Shown: positions 16,481 through 36,356 of the stretch, piece by piece
How positions within the stretch are numbered: the first letter of the stretch is position 1
How the letters are laid out: each line of letters begins with the position of its first letter
From: Moniliella sp. 'wahieum'
Taxonomy: Eukaryota > Basidiomycota > Moniliellomycetes > Moniliellales > Moniliellaceae
Assembly (NCBI GenBank): GCA_003971905.1
Contig: RSEE01000040.1
Coordinates: forward strand, 1 to 64,000
Direction: 5' to 3'
DNA length: 64,000 nt
Translations under genes and position numbers: made by a program
Notes under the pieces: generated by a model
Databases searched by the model: none
What the model saw: only the letters and a program-made list of their open reading frames with translations
What the model was told of the DNA's origin: nothing

Positions 16481-18808
16481 TTAATGGTGGCAAAGTTCTT
16501 GGAACGCCGACTCGACTGCTTCCTTGATCTGAACCAGAACAATGGCAGGAACAATAGCCAACTGTTAGTGGAACGTCCGCCATCAAGCAAAAGTAGAGGT
16601 AACAAACATACTTCATGATAGCTCACTACAATGCACGTTTGCTCGTCGCGGCTCGTGAGCAGCAAGCGCTCCTCGGACCCGGCATCAAGCTTGTTGAGGT
16701 TGACCAGAATGTAACTCAAGTCCACCAACGGGGTACCTGCTTCAGTTGAGGCGTGGAAAACAGCGTCGCGGAAGAGCTTGACCAAGTACCGTTCTCCCGT
16801 TTCGGACCAGCGTGCATCATGGTCCAGCTCCCCGCGTTCATTGACAAATCCGAGCTTACACAGCAGCCGGACCAGCCTGCCATTCTCCACCTCCTTCTGC
16901 AGACTGGATCGGAGCACATCCGACGCACCCAGCGACGCATTGAGCGTATCGGCCATGCGCGGCGCCAGGCGCACAATCAGCTGCGTTGCGCTCCGGTCCT
17001 CTCCACACAGCAGCCATCGCACCACCTCCTCCAGCTCGGACGAATAGGCTCCACGCATCATAGCCAGTGCTGTGGGTACGTCTGCTGCGCGCTGGGCTGC
17101 CTCGGCACTGCCAGAAGCAAGAGTAACAATCAGCTTGGCCACATCAGCCAGATCGTCGACTTGCACCTGAGTCGGCTGATCAGCGCCGACGCCCGGAGGA
17201 GGCAGAGCGCCCTCTGGCAATGGATCCAACACGTCCAACACACTTGCTCCTGAAAAGCGTACCTTGCCAGGTTCGGTGAGAAGCACCTTGTGGGGCGTGA
17301 TGGTTCGCACCGCTAGGCCGGCGGCGTGGACCGACCGAAGTGCAGTAGCCATCTGGACCAAGTAGAGCCATAGCGTCGCCTCGGACACACCTAGGGGGCG
17401 GCGGGGCGGGGCGCGCAGCATAGCTTTGCCGCGCATATGCGGCTTGCGCATAGGGACGGAGCAGATCGGTGGCAGCGGTAGCTTTGAAGGGGAGGTGGGC
17501 CTGGGCGAGGGTGACGCTGCCGGCATGGTACTCGGTAACAAAGACCAAGTTCGATACGCCAAACGCACGCGTGGTAAACGCTTCGTACACGCCTACCACC
17601 CCCGGTATGGGCGGACGGCGCGGATTGTTAAGAGCGTTGCGCCACCGCTGGACGGCAGCCAAATGCGCGTCGGCGCCAAGGCGAAAATTGGCAATTCGCG
17701 TTAGGCAGTACGTCCGCCCATCCTCTTGCGACAGCGCCTTGTACACCGTCGTGGGGAACCCACGAAACGTACGCGACGGCTGCCCGCCCGTCGGAACCGG
17801 CGCTTGTGCTGCAAATTCTGGTGGGGCCAGCGCAGACGGAAGCCCTGTTGCTGCAGCTGCCGCGGCCGGACCGAGCGGGGGACCCTGACCTGAGTTGGCA
17901 GGCGGCGGGAGCCGTTCCAATGGGCACAAGCTGTGGTACTTGTTGACAAACTCGGGCAACTGGGGACCATGAAGGGCAGGGGGCACAGGCCCGGTCCAGG
18001 TGGCTTCTTGCCGCCGGTGTAGCAGCTCGCTCAAGTTGGAAGGAAGGAAGAACACATCGGACGCGGCCGTATCGGACGCCGCAGGGGAAACGTGGATGGG
18101 CAGGCGCGGGGGCGGGCCGGCAGGCGCATAGAGCTGGTACTGCAGCGCCAGCGTTGGCTGCTGCTGCGCCAAGGTGGGCGGCATCCCCATCCGGCCCGCT
18201 GCGGCCGTCAGGGCAGCCGCATGGTTCGCCGCATTAGCCTGGACCGGGTTGTGTGTACTGCGATGCAAACGGTGGCATCGGGACCGGCCCGACCGACGAT
18301 CCGACCCCGCCAGCGATCGGATGAGCGTACTCGACGGGCGGCCATTCGTCATCGTCATCAGGCAAATAGACACCGTTGGGGGGCACCGCCGGGAGGAAGC
18401 AGACGCGCCGGGCTCGAGGGCCGAGAGGTGGGCCGGGACTGGGGGCGGAAGGGGGCGGCGCGGAGGGCGGTGCTCATGCTGAGGGGCGGGAGCGGATTTG
18501 GCGGCTCGCTCAGCGTCGGGCTGGACTGGACGGGGGTGGAGGCAACGCTGCGCGGGACAAACACAGCGGCCTTGGCGGCGCGCGCAGGCAGTGTGGACGC
18601 GCTGGGTGGCGGCGGGGGGTTGGAGTGGAGCGAGAGGCCGGCGAGGGACGAGGCGAGGCGGCCGCCAGCGCTGCTGGGGGCGGCTGGAACGCATGGGCGT
18701 GGCTGGAGAGGGGCGCGCCGGGGGAGAGGGGAGGCGAGCTGGTGGTGGTGCCGGGGGCGGGCGGCGCGGGGAGAAGACGGGCGCAGAGGGGGAGGGCCGC
18801 GTGCTCAT
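16481..18808 (-). CDS. PAN3: PAN2-PAN3 deadenylation complex subunit Pan3
   Basis: Pan3 dimerises and recruits the Pan2 exonuclease to poly(A)-binding protein for mRNA tail trimming. Visible parts, N to C: a Pro/Ser-rich region with the PAM2-like FVPRS (near 18545), FLPSNLSELLHRRQEATW, and the pseudokinase fold. In the fold, TVYKALSQEDGRTYCLTRI, FVTEYHAGSVTL and RTITPHKVLL are clear, with RFSGASVLDVL where a true kinase has DFG. The coiled coil and C-terminal knob follow: LRSSLQKEVENGRLVRLLCK, LDAGSEERLLLTSRDEQTCIVVSYHE. An 83-bp intron (16529-16611) joins this to IKEAVESAFQELCHH. The start at 18808 is a best guess. I see no N-terminal CCCH zinc finger. Frameshifts occur near 17450 and 18300-18550. 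Confidence 0.9.
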
Positions 18809-19425
18809 TGCATTCCTCGCGTCGCGGCGGTCGGCGGGCGCGTCGCGTGGGACGGGGGGGGCGAGGCGTGGCGGAGGCGTGGCCGTGGCAGCGCAGTGGT
18901 GGCCGGGCACGCGGAGGGGCGGAATGCAGGCAGGCGTGGCGGGCAGGGTGCGATTGGGGCCTGTGGCTGCCCCCTGCCTGCGCCGCCCATTCCGCCCGCC
19001 CGCTCCAGTCCGCCGCTGCCCCTGCAGCGCCATGCATGGGGTGCAGCCGAAGCGGCCAGTCGGCCACCGCCTCCTTGCTGGGCCGCCTGTGGGCAGCGGT
19101 GCGTTCGTGTGTCGGTGTGTTGCATTATCGATCTCAGTGCATCCATACCAAGCGCCGGTCCTCGATAAGATCGCTACTCGGCTAGTAAGCGGTACCCCCC
19201 AGGACTCGCGGTCAGATCTCAGAATCTCAGAAATGACCGTCATCGATCGTCGATCATCGATCATATATACGATCGCTCGGCTCATCGATCATCGCTCATC
19301 GGCCCATCTGCAGGTTTCGTCAAAACGCCCCGAGTGCTCCAAATTGAATATTGCCGCGCCCCAGCCGGTGCCACCTCCTATCTCGCAGCCACCACCACCC
19401 CCCCAGATCTCTGCTCCCTCGGACC
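18809..19425. promoter_or_regulatory. Divergent promoter of PAN3 and the Ctr transporter with GATC cluster
   Basis: This space separates head-to-head genes. Within 19241-19304 the words ATCGATC, GATCATCGATC and ATCGCTCATCG recur almost in tandem, ending about 120 bp before the Ctr start. TCAGATCTCAG lies at 19212. The part nearer PAN3 is GC-rich and low complexity. The regulatory role is inferred from position and repetition only. Confidence 0.5.
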
Positions 19426-25397: not shown

Positions 25398-25469
25398 TGG
25401 ACGAACAGGGAATTGAACCCCGGACCTCATGCATGCTAAGCAAGCGCTCTACCCCTGAGCTATCCGCCC
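25398..25469 (-). tRNA. tRNA-Ala (AGC)
   Basis: A full 72-nt cloverleaf can be drawn on the minus strand. The acceptor stem GGGCGGA pairs with TTCGTCC (two G-U pairs). The D arm is GCTC..GAGC, the anticodon loop TTAGCAT carries AGC, the T arm is CGGGG-TTCAATT-CCCTG, and the discriminator is A. The A and B box sequences (TAGCTCAGGGG and GGTTCAATTCC) are present. A run of nine T follows directly, a good Pol III terminator. There is no intron. The anticodon stem CTTGC/GCATG has one U-U mismatch at its second pair, unusual for alanine tRNA; it may be a base error. Confidence 0.93.
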
Positions 25470-27507: not shown

Positions 27508-28165
27508 GTGCTCTTCTCTTTTTGTCCGATCTTCTCCAGTGTCTTGTTCCGCTTGTACAGCCCTCGCAAGCGAGATGCTCGAGCGCGCAGAGGTTGGATC
27601 GTGTGTGGCGAAGAGAGAACTTTTCTTTGTACGAGGAGAGAGGGATGACAACTGATATGTCAGTCTGTCCCACGTGTTGATGCAAATGACGCATGAACTA
27701 ACCTCTTATGCCCGAGCAGATCCTGCACTTTTGTGCCCTTGCCCCTCTCCGGTGCGCAACATTAGTCACACGCAATGATGGATCGAAACGGAATAAGATC
27801 AAAGCGAAAGGTGTGGTGTAATATATTTTTGGGTTGTTGGTAGAAAGGACAGTTCCGCTGCGAGCCGCACTGCGCCAGCGCGCGGCGATTCCGCGTCTCC
27901 CGTTGTGGCTGGCCGAAAAATAAATCAGGGCTGGCCGCCTCGCTGGGTAGAGACGCAAGGACGCAAGAAGATCGACGGCAACCACTCTGCTGGGCTGATG
28001 AGGGCCGTGCGGCTGCGGCAGCCTCCACTCAGTCGTTGCCTCGTCTCCTCTTCACCCACACATAGCCCTCCTCCTGCCACAGCCGCCGCCGCCGCCACCA
28101 CCACCTCCACCTACCGCCGCTGCCTGCACACCTGCCGGCCCGGCCTCCACCGCACCCCCGCTGCC
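27508..28165. other. Intergenic region and possible N-terminal extension of the next gene
   Basis: Nothing recognised up to 27997. From ATG 27998 the frame is open into the pseudouridine synthase and encodes a Arg/Ser/Thr-rich, acid-free stretch (MRAVRLRQPPLSRCLVSSSP), which fits a mitochondrial presequence. Confidence 0.45.
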
Positions 28166-31100
28166 ATGTCCTCGGCATCGTCCCTCGCCACCCATCCGTC
28201 ACCCGACCCGCAGCTGCTGGGTCTTCAGCTGCGTAAGGTGACGCCCTACTGGTGGGACTATACAACTAGTACCAAGCGCCGCTGGGTTGGCCGTGAGTTG
28301 CTCGAGGTTACACCAACGAGTTCCGCGACCGCACCAAGGAGTAACCTCTGGGCCATGCACCAAGGCCTGTGTACTGTCAACGGTGCCCGTGCTACTCCGC
28401 GACATGTGTTCCGCATGACTGATGTTGTGGTCAACAAAGCGCATATTCATGAGCCTCCCGTCACTGCCGAGCCCATCCGCACCCCATCGTGACGACCAAC
28501 AGGGCCGTCTGGTGGTCGTCAAACCGGGCTCTATTCCGTCCACACCGCCGCCGGTACCAGCACAACACCCTGCTTGAAATGCTGCGGCATCAAACGGGCC
28601 TTCCCAAGATCTATACTTCCAACCGTCTCGACCGCCTCACCTCGGGCGTCTGGTCTCTCCACCACCCCCCTCGGCGGCCCGCGAGCTTAGTGAACAGTTC
28701 CGTTCCGGCAGGGTACGCAAGTTCTACTTGGCTCGTGTTCGCGGAAGATTCCCCGACGGCCCCCTCGTTTGCCCCAGCCCATCTTACCCGTCGATGCTCA
28801 ATCGGGCGTCAACTCGTTCACCCCTGGCCGACCGTGCGAGACGATCCTGGAGAGCGGATATCCTACCATTCCGAGACGGACACCTCGATTGTCAAAGCAC
28901 AGCCGGTCACGGGCGCACGCACCAGATTCGGGTACATTGTCAGTACCTCGGCCACCCCATTGCTAATGACCCACTCTACGGGCACGACATTTGGGCTCTT
29001 TCCCTGCCACCTCCATGCGTCTGAAGCTGTTGATTTGTCGCTTTACCGCCCTTGCAGGTGGGACTGGGTCCACAGGCAGTGCTGCGGTGGACAAGGTAAT
29101 TGCGACTCTTAAGAGGCATCGCGACTTGGAGGACGATGAGGCTCGTTGGAAAGACGAGGCGCTGTTTTCCTCACTTTTGGAGCATGACGGGTACCCTCTC
29201 CCGGCTAAACTTCCGGGCGCCAATGCCCAAGCCGCTGCACTCACCGGCACGATTGGTACGCGCGAACAGATTTTGTCCAAGTTAGGCTTTCGCTGGAGAG
29301 TAGTCGATTCATGGACCAGATCCGCAACGAGAAGATCCAGGGGATTTGCTCCGAGTGCTACATCCACTCTTACCTGACCCGGACCCTGAGTCGCTTTCAT
29401 TTTCTTGCATGCATACCATTACGAGTCAGACTCGTGGTCGTACCAAGACGAGCTGCCCTGGTGGGCGCAGGACGATTGGCATGCCCGAATGACGGCCGCG
29501 CGTGCGGCTCGGCTTGAAGCCAAGCAACTAGGCAAGGATACCTCCACTATTTTTCAGGTTCCCCCAGAAGCCCGCTCCGCTCCTCCTCTGCACCTTGGAA
29601 CTCCCGCGAGGCGAACAGACTCTCCCCAGCGGGGAACTGATACGTACTTGGACCCGCTTTCCGCTGATGGGTTGACGGAACTGGAATGCCAAGAACTGGG
29701 GCACCTTTCCCAGCTCCAGTTGGAGCCAGGGTACACCCGCTTGGTTCAGAACCCGTTGGTCCTTGCCGAGAGTACGGAAGAACAGCCTCACTTGATACCG
29801 TGCTCGACAGCCCTTACATTTGACGTGTTCCCTGGATTGGAGGATGTGGCCGAGCACGATTTGCGGCGGGTGCTGCGTCTCTACAGCCAGCTGTACAAGA
29901 AAGAGGTTGCAGAGGATGAGACGACGTTAGCGTTCCTTCATTCGGGCCAGGTTGCTGTGCCACCAGGGCCGGCAGCCACGCTTCTCCTTCGCGCTTGGAT
30001 GGACGGACGGATCCGGTCCGCCCAAAGTGCCCACTTGGTTCTGAGCGAAACGGACTTTCCCTTGGCGGTAGCGCGTCGGCTTATGTCGGAGCGCCTAGCG
30101 TTGGGACGGACTAGCGAGCAAGCCAAGCGGTCCAAACGCGGCTACAAGAATAAAGCCACCCCTACCCTGATGGACATTGTTGGTGGACGACATGAGGTGG
30201 CTCCACTGGATCCCCATGACAAGCAGCTTGATGCACAGGGGAAGAGGAATACTCTCTTGACCCCACCACAAGCGAAGGATGACCAGCACCTAGATGAAGA
30301 CTTGCGTGATCTTCCGCCCTCCGAGGGGGCCATGGTGCAGTTGCTACGAGCTGCATGGGACTCTCACGAGACACTGCAACAAAGGGATCTGGCACTGCAA
30401 CGTGGGGCAAAGTCCGGTCCGAACAAGGTCGACAAGGGCCTTGCCCTCAGGCCAACAATGGCCATGGCACTTCGTTCAAGGTCTCCTTTAATCGCGGAGG
30501 CTACTTGCTGCCTACTCTCCAGACCCCCAGGTCAACCCCTTTTTAGGGGACACGGTTTGGAAATGGCTCAACGAGGGGGTCAGCCCGGGCGACCCAGCTG
30601 TGACGTGGCCTGTGCACTCACCTCACCACGCCCGAACTGGTGGTGCATGTGCGCTTGGTTCCCAATTGGTTGGTCGGGCGCCTCTTCTCTCGTGCCCCCA
30701 CGAGCTGGTCACCAGAAGAGGTAGAGACGTTGCGCCGAATGGCTTCCGAGCCAATGAGCGATTCAGCTACCGACCCACCGAACGGCGCCGTGTTCATCAG
30801 TTTGGAATTGCCTCCGCCTCCTTCCATGCCGGCGCGGCCTGAACTGGAACATGATTATTTGCGGGAGGTACGCTGCTGCGTCCCGATCGCGCCTATCTCC
30901 TGGCTGCGCTGTCTGTCCTCCCTCCTCCCTCCCCCGAGGAGACCAAGATCCTGGAACCGTGTACGGGGTGGGGCCGGATTCCGGCCGAGCTGCGCCAGTG
31001 CCTCAATGAGATTGGGAGGAAAACGTGTCGATCTTCGCGAGCGATATTGACCCCGACTCGGTTTGGAGAACCGGGGAGCTTCTCCGCCGCACCGAGCCCT

Positions 31101-31885
31101 CTGTACCTGGAATCAAAACGTATACCCATCTGTTGGATGCGGCCGAGCCTGGGCCGCTCGGACGCTGGCTGGCAGGGGAGGTACCGAATGCTGTGGGTCA
31201 TGCAAGGCAAGCAAAGATAAAGAACCCTGAGTCTTTGCCGCCCCCACTCGCGCCCCCGCGGCACCACGACGGTCGCCAGGATCATACCAAGTACAGGGAC
31301 CCCCTGCTCCCAGATGGTCTAACTGCCGAACTAGCCCAAGCCGATGCAGTGGTGACGACCTGCCATGGGGCCAGAAGGTGATGACCGCGGCCCAGCTTCG
31401 GCGGTTTTACCGCGCGTTGCTGCCGTCGCTGTTGACGGTGCTCAAACCGGGTGGACGAGCGGTGATGATGACGGCTCAGCACACTATGCTCGACCGGCTC
31501 ATTACCGACTTTGGACTGACCCAAGCGGGAGGTGGGCCGCAGTATGAAAAGGGCGACAGGGCAGGGATGAAGGTGCCCAAAGGAAGGCAAGAATGGACAT
31601 TGGAAAAGACGTTGCTCGCCTGCCTCCGGCCGACATGGGACGCGCCATGCCCTCTCCCAACCAGCCTGCCAAACGGACGCAAAACCCGGTCACTTTCCAA
31701 TACATTTCTCCTGAGAGCGATGGCCACTTGGGCGCCCATGCGATCGGCTACGAACGATCCCCGCCCGTGCCCAGGGCGTGCGCAATGCCGAACAACACGA
31801 CGGCCATCGGACTGCCAAGGCCGGGTATGTTGTGGGCTTGGTGGAGCTGCGCAAAGTGCGACTGCCTCCCTCTGCTTCGCCTTAG
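28166..31885 (+). CDS. RluA-type pseudouridine synthase fused to THUMP-like methyltransferase
   Basis: The first half is a Pus9/Rib2/RPUSD2-type synthase. Its parts are VTPYWWDYTTSTKRRWVGR, AMHQGLCTVNGA (S4-like), catalytic Asp in NRLDRLTSGV, GRTHQIRVHCQYLGHPIAND and the family's C-terminal CSECY..DPDPESLSF..LHAYHYESD..LPWWAQDDW. The same frame then continues without a stop for about 400 codons. It passes TFDVFPGLEDVAEHDLRRV (29815), which resembles the N-terminus of THUMP methyltransferases. A SAM-dependent fold then follows across frame breaks: GWGRIPAEL, SIFASDIDPDSV and TLLPSLLTVLKPGGRAVMMT. No ATG lies in this frame between 29491 and about 29997. The end near 31885 is inferred from the frame with GYVVGLVELRKVRL. 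Several single-base breaks occur. The fusion could be false if a base is missing at the synthase stop. Confidence 0.75.
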
Positions 31886-33318
31886 CTATTTGCATATGTC
31901 CACAAAGCCTGCCTGTCTGTTTGAGTGATCCGATTCAGGTACCACATAGTGTATCATTCGTCGCGCCTACTACCATGCGGGCGGTCAAGAAGGAAGCCCG
32001 GCTGTGGCAGTTCAACAAAAGTTGGGTGAAACGATCATGTGGGGGAGAGGAAACCTGAGGCATTGGGAGAGTGTGGTTAGTGTGGGCCGGGCATCTCTTC
32101 ACCTTCCAAAGATGAGGTGCACACGGCATGACATATTCCTCCCCGAGGATGGAGAGGGAAGATGGCCAGCGACTACAGGTCGAGTGTAAAAGAAATGTGG
32201 ACGATGGGTCAGAATCCGCATGTCGTCACGGAAAAGAAGAAAAAATGTGGCGTATGCAAATGAGAGAGGGCAGCCACATGATCATACAGATGACTTTTCG
32301 CCGAGGGCATGGCGGGTTGAATATGCTGTGTGTCGAACGAAGTGACGAATGATAGAATGAAGAGACGCCCACAGGGGCCCGTGGGCTAGCCTCGATCGAA
32401 AACCCCCGAGAGCAGCAGATGGACGGAGAAGCGAGGATCGATGATGCCATACGACAGCGCGGATATGGATGCGCAGGCACAGCAGCGCGCCCTGCCTCGC
32501 TCGGCGCCCGCCTCGATCCTCAGGCTGACTGTGACGTGTGACGTGCGTGTGACGCATCTGACATGCATCGCATCGCGCATCTGCCACATGTGGGGCTGCA
32601 GTGGCGCCGCGCAGGCCGCGCAGGCTCAGCAGCACACACGCAGGCACACTGCGGGCTGGTGCGGGCGCGACGGATGAGTCAACGCGCCGCCGCAGCCACC
32701 GCGCACTCGTGTGGTCCGCAAGGCTCCTCCCGAGCCTCCCCAGTCGTCTGTCTACGTCACCCAGCCTGAGAGACTGGCGCTGCGCTGCCCCCCATGCGGC
32801 CAGGAGCGGGGGTAAGCCTTGTGGCTTGCGGCACCGCGCGAGTCTACCCCGGATATCGCAGCGCTGTACTCTATGCGGAGTGATGCAGTGCAGGCGCGCA
32901 GCGGCGCAGGCACACACTTCCCCGGAATGCAGGGCCCCCGGGCAGGTGACCCCGCAGTCCTATTTTTGTTTTCCTCCGTCGCGACGCGATCGGCACTTTC
33001 ACACACTCCCCGTGCCCGCCCCCTGCGAGGCCGCTGCGTCATGCGTCATGCGTCACCGGTCACTCGGCATGCAGCATGCCACCTTCTCTTCCCTCTGCCG
33101 CCCCATCGTCGCGGCGGACGGCCCTGCCCCGGGGCCAGTGTGTGTGTGTGAGAGTCCACCCGCCTCTGTCTCTCCGGCTGCAGGCTGCAGGCTGCACTGC
33201 ACGGCGCGCCCCATCCTGTCGCGCCGCAGCACTTGGTCGGAGCTCCAAGCTCAAAAAGGAGCCCCTGACGCGCCCGCGTCCCCCTCTTTGTCCCCCCCTC
33301 CGCCATCCCCCCCCTGCC
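31886..33318. other. Intergenic region upstream of glucoamylase
   Basis: No gene seen. A TG dinucleotide run (33138-33150) and C-rich leader precede the glucoamylase start. GC content is high from 32450 onward. Confidence 0.5.
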
Positions 33319-35041
33319 ATGCGCCTCAGCCTCCTCACCGCCCTCCTTGCCTGTCTTGGCACTGCTGCTCCAGCCGCTGTCCCTCGTCCCGCCTCCCGCT
33401 CCCACCCCCACCCTCCCACCCGCGTCACCGACGAACAGCCTTTGCTGGCGTACGTTCCCAGCCCCCCCTTTAGCTGTGTACCCATGACACTCACCTCCTC
33501 TCTTTCCCCCCGCAGCTCGTGGCCAACATCGGCGGTGCTGGCGCAGAGACAAACGTGGAAGGTGCTCTGGCTGGGTACGTTCTTCTCCCCACCTCTTCCG
33601 CAGTCTTTCCGCAAAGACACCAATTAACGTACTGCATGTGAACAGAGCTGTGGTAGCCTCCCCTTCTAAGCAGGCGCCTGATTACTTCTACACGTGGACC
33701 CGTGACGCTGCTCTTGTGGCCAAGATCCTTGTGGACCGGCATGGAGACGAACAGGTCGGGTCAGCTACCCTTCCTCACGCCGCAATTGACCAGCACGTCT
33801 TCCAATCCCCACAGGCTCCAACCGGCCCGTTGGCTGTCCCGTTGCGTACTCTTCTTGAAAACTGGGCTCGGTCTGAGATGATTCACCAGAGCAACGCTGC
33901 TTCTGCCCCTGCCGGCCAAGGAGAGCCCAAATTCTACGTCAACGACGGAAGCGTTTACATGGGCCCTTGGGGTCGCCCCCAGACCGATGGACCCGCACTC
34001 CGCGCCACCGCTCTCATCCAATTTGCGCGTCAAATTGGCCTGAACGACTCGTTCACTAAAGATCTATTGTACCACCCCAACCTCGATGGATCCTCTCTCA
34101 TCAAGAATGACCTCGAATATGTGGCGCATCACTGGTGGATGCCCACATTTGATCGTATGTTGCACTTCTTTTTTGCTTTTTGCTTGGTTTGCGGTTGTGG
34201 CACTGACTCTCTTTGTTGGCTTCTGAATGTGGGAAGAGCTGAATGAGCGCCACTTTTTTACCCTCTCTGTGCAGCGGCGTGCTCTTATGGAGGGCGCAGA
34301 CCTTGCTGATGAGTTGGGTGACCATGCCGCAGCCAAGTTCTACCGCACCCAAGGTGCCCACGTTCTTGAGACACTTCAAGGATTTTGGGATGAGAAAGCA
34401 CAGCGCGTTCAAGCCTACCATGTCCCCTGGAGGTCTGGAGTTGACTGCTCTACTCTGTTGGGCTCTCTCCATGGATGGAACCAATCGTCAGTGGAGTCAA
34501 GTTTGGACGAGACGCAATTTGGACCGGCGACGCAGCGCATGCTTGCAACGGTGGACCAATACCTCTCCACATTCCGCTCGTTGTACCCCTTGAATCAGAA
34601 CAAGCCCGCACCGCATGCGATTCTGACTGGCCGTTACCCTGAGGATGACTATGCTGGATTTGAACGCACAGGTGGAAATCCATGGTACATGTGCACCCTT
34701 GCCACTGCCGAGGTACTGGACAATGCGGCAACCGTCTTTGACCATGCCCACTATCTCGACGTTACTGCGGCCACGCAACCCTTTTTCTCTCAATGGGTTC
34801 CACGCCTTGGATTGGGGCGCGCTCACCACACACACGCTCCTTTGCCTTGGTTACCGCAGGCATGCGCGACTTGGCATCTGGCATGCGGGACTTGGTTCAG
34901 ATTTATGCCTACCCCAACGGCTCCATGTCGGAACAAATCGACCGCCACACGGGCAAGAATGTGGGAGCACGCGAGCTTACGTGGAATTATGCAGCTTGGT
35001 TGTCGGCAAGCAAGGCGTCGCGTGGCACTCCCGTGTTCTAA
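33319..35041 (+). CDS. Secreted glucoamylase, GH15
   Basis: This enzyme releases glucose from starch and glycogen ends outside the cell. A signal peptide is clear (MRLSLLTALLACLGTAAPAA). GH15 motifs follow in order: ALVASPS..PDYFYTWTRDAALV, YVNDGSVYMGPWGRPQTDGP, NDLEYVAHHWW, WEELNERHFFT with the general acid Glu, RYPEDDYAGFERTGGNPWYM, and SEQIDRHTGKNVGARELTW with the general base Glu. The protein ends ASRGTPVF at 35041, with no starch-binding module. Introns at 33575-33645 and 33755-33814 are well supported. One near 33450-33515 and one near 34154-34235 exist, but their phase is disturbed by lost bases. A further break lies near 34800. Confidence 0.93.
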
Positions 35042-35869
35042 TACCCTACCTCCTCACTCAACGTTCGGAACCCTTTACGCCATCGAAGATTTGTCTATCA
35101 GACAACAGTGCTGTGCGCTGTTCTACGTTTGCGTTCCATCACCCTGCCCATGATCTGATCGAGGAGTCTTTACATCACATGATTCGCTATCGGCCCCCTA
35201 TCCGTTTCCTGAATCCAACCTTTTCTCACACTCCTCAGATAGATCATCTCCCTGCTGTTCCCTGCCGTTCCCTGTGTTGTGTGCTTCTTGACCTTACCCA
35301 CCCACACATATTCCCTCTCCCTTCCTCTCCACTTGACCCTACCACATGTTGATTGCGTTCATCAGCACATGCTCATACCACATGCTGCCCCTCCCACGCC
35401 CCGCTATAATGTTTGTACCCTCTCTGTCTACGACGTGCTGATTGTAATGAACCCGCCTTGCACGCCCTATTCCACCAGCCTTATTCCTGTTTTAGCGACG
35501 AGCGTCTGGCCTTCCCCTTCCTACCTATTGGTTCGAGTGGGTTTGATCTTTGGTCTCCTTGTTGATGTTGAGGCCAATGAGAATCCAACAATTTGAGCCT
35601 GAAATCTGAGCGTCCTTCCCTATACCAGGCCAATGCCCACACTCTCTGTCCACATCCTATTTGGTCAGGTCAAGATTCGGGCAGGATCATCTGACAGACA
35701 TGCTGACAAAAGGAGCAAAGAAAACGCCATACAAATTATTGGTTTCGATCACATAGAAGGGGGGGCCGAGAGGGAGATTCACCCGCGGTACTTTGGGGTC
35801 GTGTATTACAGGAGCATGCCTTTGTATCGTGAGTTTTGTTGCCAAGTCTTTTCAGGGACTGCATCACTT
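35042..35869. other. Intergenic region, 3' side of glucoamylase
   Basis: No gene recognised. The DNA is pyrimidine-rich on this strand. Confidence 0.5.
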
Positions 35870-36356
35870 CTAACGATCGGGCGTTGCAATTCGATCCATA
35901 GCCTGTCGAAGCATGTTTGACCCCAACGCTGCAAGTTGGGCATGCTGACATTCAGAATGCCTCCTGTCCCCGTTTGGTCGAGCACCATCACTGACTCGAG
36001 CGTTATTGATGATGGACTGCAGGCCGAAAATGGGGAGAGCGTTATGTAGCTGCTGGATCTCGTGGCTGTTCTCCCTATGCCGGCAGTGCTCGTCCAACGC
36101 GGGAGTTGCTGCCTCGCATTAGAGATGGATGTGCCCCCCCGCTGTTGCTTTCCTCTGGACTCGAAGGGAGTCTGGTTTGGTAACGTATAGTTCTCGTGCC
36201 AATATCCTCCTGGTCTTTGGGATGCGCAGAGGTTGCGCGGAGGGCGCTGATTGTGCATGGCGTCGTGGCTGATGATGCAGATGGGGGCGCGATGGGGCAA
36301 GTCTGTGTTGGTGATGGTGGGCCCAAGCCTGCGTCTGCCATGTACAACAAGTACAC
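35870..36356 (-). CDS. Uncertain hypothetical protein
   Basis: Two minus-strand frames, joined by one frame change near 36085, give about 160 residues of moderately balanced text: QEDIGTRTIRYQTRLPSSPE, then HEIQQLHNALPIFGLQSIIN and NMLRQAMDRIATPDR. I recognise no family. Lower GC than the flanking genes and the absence of low-complexity runs are the only arguments for coding. A third frame (35806-36390) is also long, so this may be noise. Confidence 0.25.

Follow-up and report, generated by a model that had tools for sequence, protein, structure and literature searches.

A putative in-frame fusion of an RluA-family pseudouridine synthase and a PF01170-type RNA methyltransferase in Moniliella sp. 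'wahieum'

A stretch of 64,000 nucleotides from the Moniliella sp. 'wahieum' assembly (contig RSEE01000040.1, positions 1 to 64,000; 'the window' in short) carries an RluA-family pseudouridine synthase and a PF01170-type methyltransferase, joined in frame by a linker that is itself conserved. Judged from the sequence, this join is real and conserved: a search of the host genome (69.5 Mb, 223 contigs) recovered four further copies of the fused gene (C7, C45, C3 and C10), and the order of the domains is the same in all five. These copies were assigned to three diverged loci, namely locus A (window and C7), locus B (C45 and C3) and locus C (C10). In the window, the whole gene would run on the forward strand from a proposed ATG to a TAG (28166-31885), with several frame changes in the assembly, and it probably encodes one polypeptide of ~ 1,200 residues in which a linker of ~ 110-120 residues connects the RluA-family synthase to a class I RNA methyltransferase. 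Such a fusion had been proposed in a sequence-only reading of the same DNA. The in-frame join held up, but the two halves are not contained within one end-to-end open frame in the window.

The synthase and methyltransferase halves

The synthase half was recognized from NRLDRLTSG (28621-28647, forward strand), a motif kept in all five copies, whose Asp we take to be the catalytic residue of the pseudouridine synthase. The second part of the RluA-family domain (PF00849 positions 60-151) was located at 28671-28943 on the same strand, where it scored E = 1.2e-5 and 26.0 bits (cut-off 26.8). A 631-aa frame of C10 (L031:1938-3830) stays open from the N-terminal region of the synthase across the linker and as far as the beginning of the next domain. 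The C10 frame scored E = 2.2e-27 and 96.6 bits with PF00849 (cut-off 26.8) and 220.7 bits with TIGR00005, above the curated cut-off of 192.7, which together with the RLD motif in every copy bears out the family named in the sequence-only reading. The low scores of the window for PF00849, as for PF01170, are at least partly due to the several frame changes in each half. Across the genome, PF00849 gave six matches, all on fused loci; this is a lower bound, since the window itself was not among them. The C-terminal extension of the synthase, with its conserved FIFLHA...PWW stretch, presumably resembles that of Pus9/Rib2, and no model of the Pus8/Pus9/Rib2 branch was found among the Pfam or NCBIfam matches. 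The synthase would most likely be a fungal enzyme of the Pus8/Pus9 type, with the anticodon stem-loop of tRNA as its target.

In the methyltransferase half, all on the forward strand, we identified KILEPCTGWGRIPAEL (30945-30992) and SDIDP (31040-31054), presumably SAM-binding motif I and the acidic SAM-binding motif, respectively; the corresponding patterns [DE]PCxGW and SDxDP are present in all five copies. Further downstream, the C-terminal part of PF01170 (profile 128-181), which includes DLPWGQK and VLKPGGRAVMMT, was matched at 31357-31518 (E = 4.1e-6). The bit scores of 27.1, 38.5 and 35.1 for the window, C7 and C10 all exceed the cut-off of 22.3, with each match confined to the C-terminal part of the profile, and they support the proposed PF01170-like methyltransferase. 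The matches of C7 and C10 lie in a 464-aa frame (E = 1.3e-9) and a 134-aa frame (E = 1.4e-8), respectively; the remainder of the C10 gene is a 451-aa frame with no Pfam match. A 509-aa frame of C3, which stops short of the domain end, gave no PF01170 score.

The NCBIfam matches weakly point to the tRNA m2G families as the nearest relatives of this half. The C10 tail matched best to Trm14_Arch (tRNA m2G6; E = 3e-6), followed by EmtA (23S rRNA; 1.3e-4) and TIGR01177 (2.2e-4), and C7 matched TIGR01177 (9.3e-6), Trm14_Arch (1.8e-5) and EmtA (3.8e-4), while the window piece alone gave 0.016 for Trm14_Arch, 0.033 for TIGR01177 and 0.089 for EmtA. EmtA, a model for an rRNA methyltransferase, thereby came close to the tRNA models in C10 and C7. 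All of the C10 and C7 matches are far under the curated cut-offs (Trm14, NF040721: 26.6 of 280 bits, partial; TIGR01177: 25.2 of 316.55 bits). A PDB search with profile A2 gave no match, and one with the C-terminal alignment A3 gave six weak matches, including 1wg8 (E = 0.39) and TrmN 3tma (E = 0.48), none of them significant; the PDB match to arcTrm11 5e71 (E = 0.83) was likewise not significant. Several other matches were dismissed as chance: three weak ones to peptide deformylase and, all under cut-off, Dopey_N (E = 0.067 and 0.031), AviRa, C2c1_RuvC-like and DUF2761.

A genome search with PF01170 gave three matches, all on fused loci. This count is a lower bound, because it missed a Trm11-like gene at C1:1392061-1392273 (L055:836-2558, minus strand), which is spread over several frames and has a partial TIGR01177 match and a PF01170 score below cut-off. 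The idea that the genome has no PF00849 or PF01170 genes besides the fused ones was rejected, the counts for both being lower bounds, and so was the idea that the fused half is the Trm11 of this genome. The presence of a separate Trm11-like gene counts against a Trm11 identity for the fused half, which is more likely of the THUMPD2/THUMPD3 kind. Most likely, this half belongs to the Trm14/THUMPD3/THUMPD2 group and would make N2-methylguanosine with a Trm112 cofactor.

Motif IV differs between the copies. It reads DLPWGQK in the window (31357-31377) and in C7, whereas C45 and C3 (L029 and L030, minus strand) and C10 (L031:4974-4994) have ELPW, so that the methyltransferase of the latter three could be weakened or changed. 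Together with the weak family scores, this exchange would fit an alternative that we consider unlikely, in which the fused protein is made but the synthase alone is catalytic, and in some copies at least the methyltransferase-like half has turned into a scaffold or a part that binds RNA. It is countered by the D retained in the window and C7, by motif I and SDxDP in every copy, by a PGG stretch that shows no variation across the five rows of A3, and by a pN/pS of 0.23-0.51 in the single stretch of this half that was tested, which indicates purifying selection. A catalytic methyltransferase half is the reading that we prefer.

The junction and the linker

The two halves are bridged by a stop-free frame of 444 aa, found at 29390-30724 on the forward strand. 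It contains both the PWW of the synthase end (29456) and FDVFPG at the start of the next domain (29819), and its ATG at 29489 is followed by the next in-frame one at 29999. The claim of a frame without stop or ATG through the junction was therefore correct. The frame is longer than any forward stop-free run among 1000 first-order Markov sequences of 28166-31885, which reached at most 350 aa, with a 99th percentile of 317. Its length is nevertheless by itself a weak argument and no proof, as 16 stop-to-stop frames of at least 330 aa, some overlapping, are present in the GC-rich 64-kb window. Elsewhere in the window, stop-free frames at 17180-19288 (702 aa) and 18023-19168 (381 aa) overlap on opposite strands. 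Beyond ~ 30460, the 444-aa frame departs from the conserved reading as judged against the other copies, and outside the junction frame (about 28166-29390 and 30460-31885) the gene shifts register several times in the window. The SAM-binding motifs are positioned as the sequence-only reading had placed them, but they sit in separate stop-to-stop stretches and not in the 444-aa frame: ASDIDPDSV lies in a stretch (31010-31381) that has the same register with stops intervening, and VLKPGGRAVMMT lies in one of a different register (31231-32058).

Stronger evidence was obtained from the linker that follows the C-terminal PWW of the synthase (29465-29818, forward strand) and is conserved as protein according to stop, codon-position and pN/pS tests. 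These tests compared three diverged copies (window, C10 and C45); C3 was omitted on account of a frame break within the linker, and C7 for its near identity to the window. Frame 0 had no stops in any of the three copies, whereas each of the other five frames had 1-4 stops per copy. Differences at the first, second and third codon positions numbered 49/45/72 (106 codons), 37/36/70 (100 codons) and 22/19/56 (105 codons) for the three pairs, a third-position excess with one-sided binomial p = 0.004, 8e-5 and 7e-7. Up to LSQL, pN/pS was 0.57, 0.47 and 0.31 in frame compared to 1.03-1.41 in shifted frames, and for the first part only it was 0.64, 0.43 and 0.32 compared to 0.91-1.44; the codon-test alignments were built from the frame-0 proteins, which gives some bias towards frame 0. 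No date is given for the divergence, as dS was infinite or near 2 in the linker comparison. With the linker open solely in the junction frame and changes concentrated at third positions, it is very probably translated.

These results also bear on a second alternative, a very improbable one, by which a Pus9-like synthase and a separate methyltransferase would be two ordinary adjacent genes whose frames meet by chance. In-frame ATGs are indeed found inside the linker of C45, C3 and C10, so that a shorter, methyltransferase-only product is possible from those copies. In contrast, C7 resembles the window in having an ATG near the synthase end and, in translation, none in frame for the following 510 bases, although the next domain starts near 29819. 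This, the conservation of the linker as protein in the same frame at three diverged loci, and the identical order of domains throughout speak against two separate genes. We infer a single mRNA and a single protein.

The linker leads into a region whose protein sequence is conserved across all three loci (29819-30200, end approximate, forward strand). According to PMC9957541, the solved Trm14 and TrmN have a ferredoxin-like domain followed by THUMP and the methyltransferase. By this order, a THUMP module would fall at ~ 29819-30200. The resemblance to THUMP enzymes suggested for this part was, however, not borne out, as PF02926 gave no match in the pieces of the fusion loci that were scanned, with E up to 1 or 10; the Pfam model is maybe too insensitive for such members. 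In the genome search, PF02926 had two matches (C53 and C29), both outside the fusion loci.

Copies of the fused gene and frame breaks

C7 (576132-580133) has 97.1% DNA identity to the window across the whole 28000-32000 query, and C45 and C3 are 96.0% identical. C10 is more distant, with 75.8-75.9% identity to the C45/C3 pair and 68.5% to the alignable part of the window, and a match of ~ 280 bases links the flanks of loci B and C. Besides two 80-base matches, the neighbouring glucoamylase region (33300-36300) has a near-full match in the genome only at C7. The glucoamylase-type frame itself, of glycosyl hydrolase family 15 (33488-34243, PF00723 E = 8.6e-26), lies downstream of the fused gene; a tRNA-Ala (agc) was found on the minus strand at 25398-25469.

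Pairing was also observed for other genes. The Trm112-like loci, whose match is partial (profile positions 17-40 of 40), form a 95% pair with both strands compared, and the two THUMP loci are 92% identical to each other along 1.3 kb. U6 snRNA has at least five matches in the genome (48 of 3350 candidates scored), two of which form a 95% pair. Among seven loci for the RNA polymerase large subunit, there are three pairs (C41/C42, C129/C14 and C12/C118; 97.8, 95.9 and 97.2% identity) and a seventh locus (C134) with 85% to the first pair. On these identities, the assembly seems to consist of paired haplotypes plus some diverged third copies; a mixed sample may also be the source of copies. The pattern suggests that loci A and B are probably paralogues, and the flank match shared by B and C that C is probably a diverged relative of B.

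Every copy of the fused gene is broken, the positions of the breaks differ among the five, and a single frame spanning both Pfam domains is absent from all of them when the frames are read unjoined. The full-length protein is therefore inferred from overlapping evidence. Between the window and C7, 113 indels were counted over 7.6 kb, among them 63 single-base and 30 two-base ones, and within the gene 38 of 40 indels were not multiples of three. Per kb, the synthase part had 18.8 indels, the linker 2.6 and the methyltransferase part 7.3, an unevenness along the gene for which we have no explanation; three non-coding stretches gave 16-24 per kb, about equal to the synthase part. Mismatches between the same two copies amounted to 17.3 per kb in the synthase part and 13.1 in the methyltransferase part, compared to 43-53 per kb in upstream and intergenic DNA and 22 downstream. 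Substitutions are thus constrained while indels of one or two bases are not, as is expected from sequencing error or a poorly polished assembly. Gene-family decay or an artefact due to poor assembly, which the breaks in all copies and the near non-coding indel rate of the synthase part might suggest, is slightly less probable still than two adjacent genes, given that mismatches in the synthase part are 2-3 times rarer than in upstream and intergenic DNA, that the breaks differ in place, that the linker and the next region have a synonymous excess, and that the motifs are present in all five copies.

Proposed activity and relation to known systems

Taken further, the fused gene would encode an apparently undescribed two-activity enzyme that combines a Pus9/Rib2-type synthase with an m2G methyltransferase in a single chain. 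It would be old enough for duplicates to have diverged at two or more loci of the genome, with an Asp-to-Glu change in motif IV in one lineage; our confidence in this fuller proposal is evenly balanced. In the fused enzyme, both catalytic sites would probably act on one bound RNA, possibly a common tRNA substrate; alternatively, the RNA-binding part of the methyltransferase half would hand the substrate over to the synthase half. The Trm112-like pair and the U6 genes in the genome leave both tRNA and U6 as possible substrates. Fused genes are classically taken as a sign that the two proteins work together. A link between pseudouridylation and m2G methylation, if true, would suggest that both marks go onto the same RNA or are added at one step, and the fused gene would provide a natural construct for testing it.

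The enzyme families are ordinary, and their combination is not described in the titles and abstract beginnings searched: none of these reported a synthase-methyltransferase fusion. Relatives were not confirmed in viral contigs, nor in prokaryote genomes by one scan with A3. A different pairing, of a PUA-domain protein with a SAM-domain protein, is described for an archaeon in PMC3714255.

With the RluA family (PF00849, TIGR00005), the fused gene shares the family profile, the NRLDR motif and a long C-terminal extension. The methyltransferase half has the C-terminal part of PF01170 in common with the tRNA m2G6 methyltransferases Trm14, TrmN and THUMPD3, to which the Trm14_Arch match of the C10 tail also points. 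It differs from them in scoring far under the family cut-off, in lacking a detectable THUMP and in the synthase added N-terminally. According to PMC10415138 and PMC13109388, THUMPD3-TRMT112 is responsible for m2G6/7 in tRNA and THUMPD2-TRMT112 for m2G72 in U6 snRNA. THUMPD2 would be of the same enzyme class as the fused half, with U6 as a possible substrate here as well. Trm11, which makes m2G10 with Trm112, belongs to the same superfamily, and its likely counterpart in this genome is the separate gene at C1. In architecture, the fused gene can be compared with the Pus8(Rib2)/Pus9 branch. In yeast, the Rib2 synthase is fused to a deaminase of the riboflavin pathway, whereas the C-terminal partner here is a methyltransferase. 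If the fusion is true, it would give a second partner to the synthase branch that is known in yeast for its deaminase fusion.
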